Below are positions 31,865 to 36,723 of a stretch of 36,723 bases of DNA, in pieces. The DNA comes from Bacteroidales bacterium (GTDB lineage: Bacteria > Bacteroidota > Bacteroidia > Bacteroidales > JAAYUG01): assembly GCA_012517825.1 (NCBI GenBank), contig JAAYUG010000047.1, positions 1-36,723 of the forward strand, given 5' to 3'. How positions within the stretch are numbered: the stretch's first letter is position 1; each line of letters opens with the position of its first letter. Both the position numbers and the translations under genes were made by a program. The notes under the pieces are model-generated. The model was given only the letters and a program-made list of their open reading frames with translations, did not search any database and was not told the origin of the DNA.

Positions 31865-32686
31865 ATGCACCGTATCATTTTTCTTATTCTTCTGGCTATG
31901 CTGGCCTCTTCATGCAAAAATTCCGTGATACTGGGGAACAAAGAACAGGAAACGGATACTATTGCCAGCGGAAGCGACACAACCCTGAGCAAGGCATATT
32001 ATGAAGACGGAGCACTTAAGTCGGTAAGCCAGATGAAAAACGGACTGAGAAACGGGCTTACAAAAAATTTTTACCGGAACGGAGCCTTGCTTTCAGAAGT
32101 GTATTATGCAAACGGATTGAGGAACGGTGTGGCTGTGAACTACTACAAAGAAGGGGGAGTTCATGCCCGCATACCTTACAGGAATGATGTGAAGGAAGGA
32201 GAGGCAGTCTGGTATTATCCTTCAGGGAAACCTTACAGAATTACCCCATACCATCAGAACCTCATCGACGGAATTCAGCGTTTTTTTTATGAATCGGGCC
32301 AGCTTCAGGCTGAAGTACCCTGGAAAAAAGGCCAGCCTGGCACCGGATTGAAAGAATATACCGAAAGCGGAAGGCTTATCAGAGAACCATCCGTTGTAGT
32401 AAGGCCGGAACGATTAAACGACGCGGTAATTCTTTATATCAGCCTCTCCGACGAAAGCCGAAATGTAACCTTTTACCAGGGAGAACTGACCGAAGGAAGG
32501 TATCTTAACCGCAATCTCAGACAATTAAAAACAACCGGCGGCAAAAGCATCATACAATTCCGGCCGTCGGATCCTGAGACAACTCCAAAGGAATTTCACA
32601 TCGTGGCAATAAAAGAAACTTCGTTACGAAACCAGCAGATTCTTTACAGAAAATACCGGTATCATTACCCACCCGGCAATGAATAA
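31865..32686 (+). CDS. YwqK/MORN-repeat lipoprotein
   Basis: The protein has 273 residues. The N-terminus MHRIIFLILLAMLASSC is a lipoprotein signal with Cys17 as acceptor. From about 45 to 175 there are five to six repeats of about 23 residues of the YwqK/MORN_2 type (YYEDGALKSVSQMKNG, FYRNGALLSEVYYANG, YYPSGKPYRITPY, FYESGQLQAEVPW). The last 90 residues form a separate unknown domain. Such repeats form elongated beta sheets and are common in Bacteroidota envelope proteins; some are annotated as toxin-antitoxin 'YwqK antitoxin', but no toxin gene is next to it. It is divergent from secDF. Hairpins and repeat copy C follow. Confidence 0.85.
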   Translation: MHRIIFLILLAMLASSCKNSVILGNKEQETDTIASGSDTTLSKAYYEDGALKSVSQMKNGLRNGLTKNFYRNGALLSEVYYANGLRNGVAVNYYKEGGVHARIPYRNDVKEGEAVWYYPSGKPYRITPYHQNLIDGIQRFFYESGQLQAEVPWKKGQPGTGLKEYTESGRLIREPSVVVRPERLNDAVILYISLSDESRNVTFYQGELTEGRYLNRNLRQLKTTGGKSIIQFRPSDPETTPKEFHIVAIKETSLRNQQILYRKYRYHYPPGNE

Positions 32687-32896
32687 ACCCATTTGACGAA
32701 CTTTAAAAAGTTCCATGTGCCTGAAGGAACGCTTTCATTTTATTATTATACTGGGTGAACCGCAATGTGAAACCCTGATTTTGCTTCGATTTCCTTATAC
32801 AGGGTTTCTTTAACTCAAATTCGTCAATTGAAAAACTCAATTGATGAATTCAGGTTAAATGCCAACTGTCCGATTTTTTCTGCCGGATTTGCCTTC
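32687..32896 (+). other. Gene-free stretch with three stacked hairpins
   Basis: AACTTT/AAAGTT lies at 32699-32712. GAAACCCTG (32769-32777) pairs with 32800-32808. A 14-bp stem (one G-U) pairs 32818-32831 with 32837-32850 around AAAAC. None ends in a long T run, though TTTCTTTAA follows the second. No gene is seen between the lipoprotein and sucC. Confidence 0.65.
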
Positions 32897-32970
32897 AAAC
32901 CCCGCTGAAACACAGTGAAAGCGGCCCTTGCTGCACATTGCGCATTTTTTTATGCTCAATGCGGCCTCAA
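32897..32970 (+). repeat. Dispersed intergenic repeat, copy C
   Basis: It begins AAACCCCGCTGAAAC and has CCGCT/AGCGG and a second stem, CATTGCGCAT against ATGCTCAATG, with seven T between the arms. It is the best match to copy A, and lies on the same strand, downstream of a gene. Confidence 0.75.
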
Positions 32971-33100
32971 TTCTGAGAAATATCTCCGGTAATCTGCGCA
33001 GAAAAAAATTAAAAAAAAACCGAAAGGTAAAAATTTATAAGGGCCGGCGATAAACAAAAAAATCGTAAGTTTAGCGCGGTGATTATAAGGCGGTTGAAAT

Positions 33101-34300
33101 ATGAATCTTCATGAGTATCAGGCAAAACAGATTTTAAGGCATTATGGCGTCAGGGTTCCTGAAGGGCGGCTCATTATCAGTGCAGCGGATGCAAAAGAAG
33201 CTGCCCTTGAGATTGGTTCCGTTACCGGTACAGACACATGGGCGGTTAAAGCCCAGATTCATGCCGGAGGAAGAGGTAAAGGCGGAGGCGTAAAAATTGC
33301 CCGCTCTCCCGAAGAAGCGGAAAAGCATGCCGCTTCCATTCTGGGTATGCGCCTGGTTACTCATCAAACCCGGCCGGAAGGAAAACTGGTAAGAAAAGTC
33401 CTGGTGGAGCAGGGAATTTATTATCCGGGGGCGGAACCGGTGAAGGAATATTATATGAGTATCCTGCTCAACAGGGCCAGCGGGAAGAATATCCTGGTCT
33501 ATTCTCCTGAAGGTGGTATGGATATTGAAAGCGTGGCCGCGCAAACTCCGCATCTGATATTTCGCGAAGAAATTGACCCTGCTGTCGGGCTATGCGATTT
33601 TCAGGCAAGAAAAATAGCCTATACACTTGGCCTCGACGGCAATGCCCACCGGGAAATGCAGGCCTTTGTAAAGGCTCTGTACTCCGCCTACCTTCAGTCG
33701 GATGCAACGCTCACCGAGATCAATCCGGTAGTAAAAACCTCTGACGGGAAGATTTATGCTGCCGACGCAAAGGTCAATCTGGACGACAACGCCCTTTTCC
33801 GGCACCCGGAATATAAAGAAATGCGCGATCCTGACGAAGAAGATCCGGCTGAGCTGGAAGCCTCGGCCCATGGCCTCAATTTTATCAAACTTGACGGAAA
33901 CGTTGGCTGTATGGTCAACGGAGCGGGACTTGCCATGGCTACCATGGACATGATCAAACTTTCGGGAGGAGAGCCGGCCAATTTTCTGGATGTGGGCGGA
34001 ACAGCCAGCGCACAGACTGTGGAAGCAGGCTTCCGGATTATCCTGAAGGATCCCAATGTGAAAGTCATTCTTATCAACATTTTCGGAGGCATTGTCCGGT
34101 GCGACCGTGTAGCCCGGGGAGTAGCAGATGCATACCGGTCTATCGGAAACATCCCCGTACCGGTCATCCTTCGCCTGCAGGGAACCAATGCACAGGAAGC
34201 CAGAGAATTAATCAACAATTCCGGATTAAAGGTCTTTCCGGCTACTACACTGGAAGAAGCTGCCAGGCTGGTAAAAGAGAAAATCTCCGAAGTGAGTTAA
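33101..34300 (+). CDS. sucC: Succinyl-CoA synthetase (ADP-forming) beta subunit
   Basis: This 399-residue ATP-grasp subunit of the TCA-cycle enzyme converts succinyl-CoA and succinate with nucleotide phosphorylation. The N-terminal MNLHEYQAKQILRHYGV, the nucleotide segment VKAQIHAGGRGKGGGVKIA, EINPVVKTSDGKIYAADAKV with metal-binding residues, and the C-terminal NIFGGIVRCDRVARGV are all clear. The length is normal for bacteria. The alpha subunit gene sucD, often next to it, is not here; it must be elsewhere. A near -7 element TAAGTTTA is at 33066-33073. Repeat copy D and then the AT-rich island follow. Confidence 0.97.
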   Translation: MNLHEYQAKQILRHYGVRVPEGRLIISAADAKEAALEIGSVTGTDTWAVKAQIHAGGRGKGGGVKIARSPEEAEKHAASILGMRLVTHQTRPEGKLVRKVLVEQGIYYPGAEPVKEYYMSILLNRASGKNILVYSPEGGMDIESVAAQTPHLIFREEIDPAVGLCDFQARKIAYTLGLDGNAHREMQAFVKALYSAYLQSDATLTEINPVVKTSDGKIYAADAKVNLDDNALFRHPEYKEMRDPDEEDPAELEASAHGLNFIKLDGNVGCMVNGAGLAMATMDMIKLSGGEPANFLDVGGTASAQTVEAGFRIILKDPNVKVILINIFGGIVRCDRVARGVADAYRSIGNIPVPVILRLQGTNAQEARELINNSGLKVFPATTLEEAARLVKEKISEVS

Positions 34301-34346
34301 ACACAACTAAAGCATAAGACAAAGCTTTGGTCTCATTTCATTGGAA

Positions 34347-34420
34347 TCAACCCTGCAGAAACAAAGCCAAAGCGACCTACCACACCAAAGCACATTGCTC
34401 ATTTTTTAAGACGTAATGGG
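34347..34420 (+). repeat. Dispersed intergenic repeat, copy D (diverged)
   Basis: TCAACCCTGCAGAAAC aligns with the start of the family, and GCACATTGCTCATTTTTT matches the second stem and T-rich loop of copy C. CATT/AATG closing pairs are kept while inner bases differ. Confidence 0.6.
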
Positions 34421-34572
34421 GGGTGTTGTGTCTTAATCTCATTACATTAAAGTTTTCCTTAAGCAATCTTAACTAATATTTTTTTACGCAAGAAAAAATC
34501 AGAAAAATAATACTAATTTTATAACTAAATTTATTGTCAAAATGGTTGGCTTTATTCCTATCGTAACAGCAG
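34421..34572. other. AT-rich non-coding leader of the ATPase gene
   Basis: Within the 303-base gap after sucC, this part holds no gene. It marks the change from GC-balanced core DNA to the AT-rich island and may contain control signals of the ATPase gene. Confidence 0.5.
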
Positions 34573-34580
34573 TATCTTTG
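34573..34580 (+). promoter_or_regulatory. -7 promoter element of the ATPase/TOPRIM pair
   Basis: TATCTTTG matches TAnnTTTG, 23 bases before ATG 34604. No good -33 TTTG is seen. Confidence 0.5.
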
Positions 34581-34603
34581 ATTAAAAATTAAAATTAAAC
34601 AAT

Positions 34604-35773
34604 ATGATTATCAAAAAAATAAAACTTCATAATTGGAAAAACTTTCAAAATTGTGAAGTGGATTTAGTTGAACGTTGTTTTATCATTGGGCCCAATGCAT
34701 CAGGTAAATCCAATTTTATTGATGCACTGCGTTTTCTTCGTGATATATCAAAACAGGCAGGCGGATTACAGAGAGCTGTTGAAGAGAGAGGGGGAATTAA
34801 AAAAATTCGTTGTCTTGCAGCCAGAAAATCAACAAATGTTTCTTTAACGGTAGAATTAGGAGAACCAAATGAAAATAAACCAAAGTGGAGTTATCATCTT
34901 GATTTACAGCATACCGGAGGCGGTATTATGAAAAGTCAGGCTAAAATAGTTAAAGAGGAAGTATTTTCATATGAAAAACAAAAGTATGTTTGCAAAAGAA
35001 GTGCTCAAAACAAAGACGAAGACGAGGAAACGTTGAAATATACATATTTAGAGCAAGTAAATGCCAATCGTGAGTTCAGAGAATTACAAATATTTTTTCA
35101 AAATATTGAATATTTGAATATAATTCCACAGTTAGTCCGAGAATCTTCTTCTGCATTACAAACATACACGAAAGAAGATTATTATGGTAGAAATTTTTTG
35201 GAAAAGTTAGCTAGAATGAATGAACGAATTCGTAATTCTTATTTCAAAAAAATTAATGAATTTCTAAAAATTGCAGTTCCTCAATTGAAAGAATTAAAAT
35301 TCATTAAAGATAATATGGGTGTACCTCACATCGAGGCAAGATATATCCATTGGAGAGCGAAAGGAAGCAAACAGCAGGAAGACCAATTCTCAGACGGAAC
35401 TCTTCGCTTAATTGGTTTCTTATTTGCTTTAATTGACAGTAATGGGGTGATTTTATTAGAAGAACCTGAAATAAATCTTCATTCAGCAATTATTGCTCAG
35501 TTTCCGGAATTTATTGCCAAAATACAACGGTCAAAAAAAGGAGCCCAACAAATACTAATAACAACTCACAGTTACGATATACTTGCAAATACAGGCATTT
35601 CACCTGATGAAGTCATTTTGTTACTCAACGCTTCTGAAGGAACAGATGTAAAAAAACTAACAGAGATTAATGAAATTCTTCAAATAGTTAATTCAGGTCT
35701 ATCTATTGCCGATGCTGTCATTCCATATACAAAACCTAAGAATATTGAAAATATGTCTCAATTAAGTTTATGA
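34604..35773 (+). CDS. ABC-type AAA ATPase (OLD/RloA/AriA-like), putative defence protein
   Basis: This 389-residue ATPase has Walker A GPNASGKSN (29-37) after a RecF/SMC-like start (IKKIKLHNWKNFQNCEVDL), a signature-like FSDGT (262-266), Walker B VILLEEPEINLH with Glu286/Glu287, and the switch LITTHSYD with His322. A middle region (about 130-250) lacks known motifs and could sense or bind partners. No nuclease domain is fused, unlike OLD proteins; the next gene, 12 bases on, supplies a TOPRIM-like protein. The pair resembles PARIS (AriA/AriB) and AbiL/RloAB plans. The DNA is much more AT-rich than the neighbours, suggesting horizontal gain. The exact family is uncertain. Confidence 0.87.
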   Translation: MIIKKIKLHNWKNFQNCEVDLVERCFIIGPNASGKSNFIDALRFLRDISKQAGGLQRAVEERGGIKKIRCLAARKSTNVSLTVELGEPNENKPKWSYHLDLQHTGGGIMKSQAKIVKEEVFSYEKQKYVCKRSAQNKDEDEETLKYTYLEQVNANREFRELQIFFQNIEYLNIIPQLVRESSSALQTYTKEDYYGRNFLEKLARMNERIRNSYFKKINEFLKIAVPQLKELKFIKDNMGVPHIEARYIHWRAKGSKQQEDQFSDGTLRLIGFLFALIDSNGVILLEEPEINLHSAIIAQFPEFIAKIQRSKKGAQQILITTHSYDILANTGISPDEVILLLNASEGTDVKKLTEINEILQIVNSGLSIADAVIPYTKPKNIENMSQLSL

Positions 35774-35785
35774 TTTTTTTTAACT

Positions 35786-36439
35786 ATGAAGGTATATATT
35801 GCTGGCGAGGATGATGTAACACGGGCAATTATTAAACGAATTCTTTCGCACTGCTCCAATAATATTGAGATTATTTCAGAGTTACCTGCACGAGGAGGTC
35901 AAATAAAAAGTAAGATAACCGAATTCAATAAATTGTCGGCTGAGTATCCGGTAATTTTGCTTATAGATTTAGATGCAACCCCTTGTGCTCCGCAATTGTT
36001 GCAGGAATTATTGCCAACAGGTAAACATAAACAGTTTATTTTTAACATAGCAGTTGACGAAGGTGAAGCATGGTTAATGGCCGATAGAAAAGGCTTTGCT
36101 GATTTTTATGGAGTTGATATTAAGTTAATCCCTATTTCTACTCCTCAAAAACAAGGAGGTAGCAAAGCTTTAGTTGAAATGGATTTTAAATACAAATCAA
36201 GTATTTTTCTTACACAATACCTCATAAAAGAAATTAGGAACCCAATATTTAAAAAACAACTGACCCCTAAAAAAGGTGCTTCAAAAGGTCCGGAGTATAA
36301 TACAGCAATCTTGCCATTTATTCAGGAAAAATGGAATATTAACGAAGCTTGCAAAAATTCTGACAGCTTAAGCAGAATGATAAACCGAATAAAATCATTA
36401 GTGGCTACAAAAGAAACAGCATTACCGAAAATTAAATAG
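35786..36439 (+). CDS. TOPRIM-like partner of the AAA ATPase, putative nuclease
   Basis: This 217-residue protein has a TOPRIM-like N-terminal half: an acidic start VYIAGEDDVTRAI (Glu8 or nearby Asp), a central strand VILLIDLDA with Asp61 and Asp63 (D-x-D), and then DEGEAWLMADRKGFADFYGV (91-110), recalling the E-x-W segment of RloB/DUF4276/DUF4435 proteins. TOPRIM folds use such acidic residues to bind Mg and cut nucleic acid. The C-terminal part (about 140-217) is Lys-rich. It lies 12 bases after the ATPase gene, so the two should act together. No close family is recognised with certainty; AriB-like, RloB-like or DUF4276-like are the options. Confidence 0.75.
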   Translation: MKVYIAGEDDVTRAIIKRILSHCSNNIEIISELPARGGQIKSKITEFNKLSAEYPVILLIDLDATPCAPQLLQELLPTGKHKQFIFNIAVDEGEAWLMADRKGFADFYGVDIKLIPISTPQKQGGSKALVEMDFKYKSSIFLTQYLIKEIRNPIFKKQLTPKKGASKGPEYNTAILPFIQEKWNINEACKNSDSLSRMINRIKSLVATKETALPKIK

Positions 36440-36467: not shown

Positions 36468-36723
36468 TCAAGCATAAAAAAAAGAAAATTCAGGATAAAA
36501 AATCCTTCTGACAAGCTTTAAGATAAAATGAAAAAAATAATTTACATACCGTAGCATAGTATTTATGGCATCCCCGGTGGTTCCCTTTAAAAAGTTTCTG
36601 GCCATGCGGTAATCTTGTTTTAAGTGGGAAATTACAGGTTCAATAGCGGATCGTGACCTGCAACGCTTGCGAAAAGTCTTTTTATTGTATTCTGAGGTGG
36701 AAGATGGTAATTTTTTAGGCGTA
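36468..36723 (-). CDS. IS5-type transposase, C-terminal part, cut by the window edge
   Basis: On the minus strand, the frame entering at 36722 reads 84 residues to the stop at 36470-36468. It holds RKRCRSRSAIEPVISHLKQD, then YRMARNFLKGTTGDAINTML, the end of an IS4/IS5-clan DDE transposase with the catalytic Glu in AIEPVISHLK. After INTML the usual A-A-x-x-N-x-x-K block is not seen; instead it reads RYVNYFFHFILKLVRRIFYP, so a small deletion or frame change is possible. The start and the other IS end are outside the window. Confidence 0.75.
   Translation of the reverse strand, partial: TPKKLPSSTSEYNKKTFRKRCRSRSAIEPVISHLKQDYRMARNFLKGTTGDAINTMLRYVNYFFHFILKLVRRIFYPEFSFFYA

Follow-up and report, generated by a model that had tools for sequence, protein, structure and literature searches.

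We report that two adjacent genes near the right end of a contig from a Bacteroidales bacterium are, judged by profile matches, a clear member of HEC-01, a family catalogued in PADLOC as a candidate anti-phage system, and do not represent a new kind of system. The pair encodes an OLD-ABC ATPase followed by a predicted DUF4276 TOPRIM nuclease, and we consider with good confidence that it most likely acts in phage defence by abortive infection. The window, i.e. the whole stretch of DNA analysed, is the complete contig C47 (36,723 bases) of an assembly of 3.3 Mb in 207 contigs that is 95% complete. According to papers that cite its source (Payne et al. 2024), HEC stands for Hma-embedded candidate, and the family carries the label 'candidate' in PADLOC. 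In the literature searched HEC-01 was present only as an annotation, in Desulfovibrio piger, and no experiments on it were found there.

Family assignment of the gene pair

The features at the right end of the window are as follows.

34301..34603, + strand: AT-rich upstream region, expected location of the promoter (from the sequence; weak candidate element: TAnnTTTG box, 34573-34580)
34604..35773, + strand: ORF1, HEC-01A, OLD/AriA-type ABC ATPase, 389 aa (PADLOC PDLC04180, E 1.9e-137; Pfam AAA_21, 3e-36; model pLDDT 88.5)
35786..36439, + strand: ORF2, HEC-01B, DUF4276 TOPRIM protein, 217 aa (PADLOC PDLC04194, E 6.6e-43; Pfam DUF4276, 34.2 bits; model pLDDT 92.1)
36468..36722, - strand: IS5-family transposase, C-terminal fragment, cut by the contig end (tblastn)

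ORF1 and ORF2 lie on the same strand with a gap of 12 bases. ORF1 carries a Walker A motif (GPNASGKS, with Lys35), a variant signature (SDGTLR, residues 263-268), a Walker B motif (VILLEEPE, residues 282-289) and the H-loop His322, while the motifs of ORF2 are MKVYIAGEDD (with Glu8), LLIDLDAT (with Asp61 and Asp63) and EAWLMAD (residues 94-100). A sequence-only reading of this DNA had described an ABC-type ATPase with all its motifs followed after 12 bases by a small protein with an acidic start, and coordinates, motifs and conservation among homologues all agree with that description; its title called ORF1 an AAA ATPase, of which the ATPase part stands while the class is better termed OLD-type ABC ATPase. 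Between the ORF1 stop codon TGA and the ORF2 start codon ATG (35771-35788) the in-frame codons are TTT TTT TTA ACT, leaving one stop codon between the two frames, which is probably due to chance because the homologous genes mostly overlap by 4 bases. The claim of a single promoter was not confirmed by comparison with shuffled sequences (12 sigma-70-like sites against 9.2 +/- 3.2 in the shuffles), and in a frequency count TAnnTTTG boxes, including the one listed above, were no commoner than expected by chance.

Both proteins match the HEC-01 profiles over nearly their full length (residues 1-385 of ORF1 and 3-207 of ORF2), the genes are adjacent on one strand, and the homologues share gene order and spacing with the pair. 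Moreover, ORF2 exceeds the curated cut-off of the Pfam family DUF4276 (PF14103; cut-off 30.2 bits) over residues 8-105. By eye ORF2 had been held not to fit DUF4276 clearly, and the pair to be possibly a separate subtype; that idea falls because ORF2 does fit DUF4276 and the pair fits HEC-01 strongly. The pair differs from HEC-01 as described in that ORF2 falls in a branch made up mostly of Bacteroidales, where position 91 is Asp and not Arg/Lys and some 14 extra residues are inserted near 133-148, and in that the locus lies outside an Hma cluster. No NCBIfam equivalog was found for ORF1 or ORF2.

The related systems resemble the pair in layout and differ in the proteins themselves, and the earlier proposal is upheld in that the ATPase/TOPRIM pair is split, has PARIS, AbiL and OLD as relatives and is plausibly an anti-phage system. 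In PARIS, too, a small TOPRIM protein comes after an OLD-ABC ATPase, but in PADLOC ORF1 scored far better on HEC-01A than on the AriA (6.3e-32), AbiLi (5.2e-27) or GajA models, and ORF2 matched no AriB/DUF4435 model in Pfam or PADLOC at E up to 1, i.e. the second protein of PARIS was not found. The same holds for AbiL (RloA/RloB), also an ATPase and TOPRIM pair, where ORF2 matched no RloB/AbiLii model of these two collections at E up to 1. Gabija GajA and OLD have the same two domains, yet fused in one protein, whereas here they are encoded by two genes, and in place of an adjacent UvrD-like GajB helicase the next ORF is the transposase fragment. WonAB/PD-T4-4 has a comparable two-gene layout of an OLD-ABC ATPase and a nuclease, and WonAB acts by abortive infection (PMC12137116), but its nuclease is of the PD-(D/E)xK type and not TOPRIM.

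Predicted fold and candidate substrate

Alignments of 81 ORF2 and 78 ORF1 homologues were used to identify conserved residues, and they show that the motifs of the two proteins did not arise by chance. All ORF2 homologues share E8, D61, A89, V90, E94, W96 and S194, and position 63 is Asp in 79 and Glu in two of the 81; Glu94 and Asp100 are conserved besides the predicted catalytic residues Glu8, Asp61 and Asp63. In ORF1 the Walker A, signature, Walker B and H-loop motifs are all conserved, with E286, E287, P288, E289 and H322 invariant.

The AlphaFold2 model of ORF2, computed from the 81-homologue alignment, has a pTM of 0.89 and predicts a TOPRIM fold, as the sequence-only reading had anticipated. 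Its elements run in the order strand 2-7, helix 10-23, strand 28-32, helix 39-50, strand 56-61, helix 68-75 and strand 84-89, placing Glu8 after strand 1 and Asp61/Asp63 at the end of strand 3 as in the TOPRIM pattern; from this order the acidic residues are predicted to cluster. In the VIA list of solved structures the first four places went to OLD proteins, matched in their C-terminal nuclease region (Z 7.4-7.8, rmsd 3.8-4.0, 160-165 residues aligned), followed by GajA structures with Z 6.5-7.0, which were interspersed with unrelated alpha/beta folds of similar Z; over both groups the alignment to the C-terminal nuclease domain covers about 143-165 residues. Since a Z of 7.8 would not be decisive by itself and the Foldseek matches are weak (E 0.03-0.1), these structural matches are supportive, and the TOPRIM assignment is convincing because sequence motifs, element order and family agree, not because of Z alone. 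Sequence searches of ORF2 against solved structures gave no match with either the single sequence or a profile. AriB and RloB chains were absent from the list of structural matches, an absence compatible with likeness, and the best viral match (BFVD) was an RloB-like protein, at the level of a weak structural match (probability 0.80, TM 0.41, E 0.064). The ORF1 model matched PtuA, Rad50 and SMC heads.

These matches bear on which nucleic acid the TOPRIM protein would cut. In PARIS, a phage protein is sensed by AriA, which then switches on AriB, a TOPRIM tRNA nuclease that the E26A change disables (PMC12409363; PMC12839542). Since this free-standing TOPRIM partner cuts tRNA, we lean slightly to RNA (tRNA) as the substrate of ORF2 by analogy, with DNA nearly as likely. 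It is quite possible, if somewhat short of an even chance, that the pair defends the cell in the manner of Gabija or OLD, with invading DNA and not tRNA being nicked or cut by the TOPRIM protein, which would then serve as a direct restriction factor. This reading is a variant of the main explanation and shares in the confidence placed in it. The variant is favoured by the closest solved counterparts of ORF2, which are two DNA nucleases, OLD and GajA, and by the type III restriction operons that enclose the pair in several loci; it is weakened by the tRNA-cutting PARIS partner, and the substrate is not readable from an overall fold match.

Pairing, neighbours and spread

An ATPase gene lies directly upstream of the ORF2 homologue in 83 of 88 loci, usually with a 4-base overlap or a spacing of a few bases. 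Among the five exceptions two (L074, L112) are cut by a contig end and one (L064) looks broken, while in L080 and L089 the second gene was probably called too long by the simple ORF caller, with its start placed upstream of the ATPase's end. The identity matrices of ORF1 and ORF2 are strongly correlated (Mantel r 0.88, with none of 2000 permutations as high), and the pair is under purifying selection, with dN/dS of about 0.02-0.09 against the nearest homologues, at saturated dS. The upstream ATPase, the matrix correlation and the low dN/dS together indicate that ORF1 and ORF2 are retained and passed on together. Decayed-looking copies were also seen, in L064 as a truncated second gene without an ATPase directly upstream and in L118 as shortened ORFs separated by a gap of 170 bases.

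In seven loci (L078, L079, L083, L096, L108, L115, L126) the pair lies on one strand, with the gene for a large methyltransferase on one side and that for a large ResIII-like protein on the other, and in three of these (L083, L096, L126) one or both restriction genes are in pieces. The methyltransferase alone adjoins the pair in L091 and in L106, where a UvrD-like helicase then follows. Matches to PADLOC type III methyltransferases (L079, L106, L108) and to Pfam ResIII (downstream proteins of L078, L079, L108) underlie these assignments, the remaining mod/res neighbours having been assigned by BLAST clustering. In L056 a type I hsdR gene lies 13 bases downstream of the pair. At E 1e-20 about 20 of 295 neighbour proteins matched PADLOC models (an approximate count from family tallies) compared to 1 of 119 proteins from 20 control stretches, which were taken from the same class; because the control was not matched by phylum we treat the enrichment as supporting evidence only. 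MADS components (mad2, mad3), PD-Lambda-2, HEC-09 and several PDC candidates also occur near HEC-01 homologues. In L079 and L083, whose records are labelled Nitrospinota and Planctomycetota, closely related ATPases sit in the same mod-pair-res operon, which suggests recent transfer or mis-binning.

An alignment-based scan of contigs, drawn from a single genome for each species, yielded 369 confirmed relatives, and 80 of them were kept; a scan with the single protein as query gave none. The relatives belong to Bacteroidota, Acidobacteriota, Pseudomonadota, Planctomycetota, Cyanobacteriota, Chloroflexota, archaea and more, and the phyla are intermixed in the tree. For ORF1 the closest relatives reach 82% and 81% identity, and their records carry the labels Prolixibacteraceae and Paludibacteraceae. 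DUF4276 was present in 42 of 395 sampled genomes of the class. By tblastn no homologue was found in the plasmid and phage collections, and the viral contigs held no ORF2 relative, so phage- or plasmid-borne spread of the ORF2 branch was rejected. The genome has a second, divergent HEC-01 pair on contig C28 (about 32211-33988; L004:5212-6989), which is flanked by mtnA and a gene for a HAD-family phosphatase and whose ORFs overlap by 4 bases; the two pairs are 47% and 34% identical and fall in different branches of the tree, which rules out recent duplication as its source.

Upstream of the pair are secDF, a gene for a 297-aa protein and sucC, named by reading the translations; these are ordinary chromosome genes. 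The GC content drops from about 0.52 to 0.32 at the pair, bearing out the AT-rich DNA noted earlier, and the IS end reported beside it was confirmed, since the right edge codes for 84 aa from the C-terminal end of an IS5-family transposase (tblastn to annotated plasmid IS5-family transposases, E down to 3e-11). In G395, a genome of the same genus with about 84% DNA identity to the window over secDF to sucC, the pair is absent, and directly after sucC come an oppositely oriented 169-aa ORF and a der-like gene. The der/era DNA of G395, sought in the assembly of the window for the right-hand junction, was not found there. In both genomes sucC lacks a following sucD (33101-34300 in the window; L146:3291-4490 in G395). 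Low GC, the IS5 end, the empty site in G395, the labels of the nearest relatives and the second divergent pair form the pattern of a horizontally acquired accessory module, for which the IS5-family element, itself outside the system, is a possible vehicle.

We consider it improbable that the two genes form a toxin-antitoxin pair or one that stabilises an element, with a toxic nuclease kept in check by the ATPase and with phage defence as a mere side effect. The strict, co-evolving pairing and the adjoining IS end would fit such a pair, and the PDB entries 8v45-8v49 call AriA an 'antitoxin', but the plasmid and phage collections lack homologues, the pairs are embedded in restriction operons, and the comparable WonAB nuclease is toxic only with its ATPase, which rules out simple sequestration in that system (PMC12137116). 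A housekeeping RecF/Rad50-like repair or cell-cycle module, as suggested by the resemblance of the ATPase to Rad50 and SMC heads and by the cell-cycle role reported for the archaeal OLD-family ATPase Cran1 (PMC12796447), is very improbable, because the homologues, instead of keeping to fixed housekeeping contexts, are patchy (ORF2 relatives in 7 of 395 genomes of the class, this genome included), the genome has two divergent copies, G395 lacks the pair after sucC, the GC is low and the tree mixes phyla.

Proposed mode of action

The abortive-infection defence favoured here borrows its working mode from PARIS, and by analogy with PARIS and WonAB ORF1 is expected to be the sensor that controls ORF2. 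The ATPase would dimerise head to head around ATP, bind the small TOPRIM protein and hold it inactive. A phage product or a phage-induced state may then alter the ATPase such that the TOPRIM protein is released or activated; it would cut nucleic acid using two metal ions bound at Glu8, Asp61 and Asp63, and the infected cell would no longer support the phage. Against a role in defence, the locus adjoins sucC and does not lie in a recognised defence island; the defence island proposed for it earlier is not borne out, the left neighbour being sucC and the contig ending in the IS.

OLD-ABC units linked to TOPRIM proteins were described in a survey of BREX loci as suicidal effectors that back up restriction systems (PMC12839542), and the embedding of HEC-01 in type III operons agrees with this description. 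More speculatively, and on balance doubtful as a whole, HEC-01, found between mod and res genes of type III systems in several phyla, might be a back-up suicide module that guards a restriction system and fires when a phage defeats restriction, with a DUF4276 TOPRIM substrate unlike those of AriB, OLD and GajA, and with the Bacteroidales branch that carries the insert having a substrate of its own.

HEC-01-like genes are common, as the DUF4276 count in the class illustrates, and the alignments point out residues for mutation and place the family in archaea as well as in many bacterial phyla. Finally, the repeated insertion of the pair into type III restriction operons suggests a testable link from restriction failure to activation.
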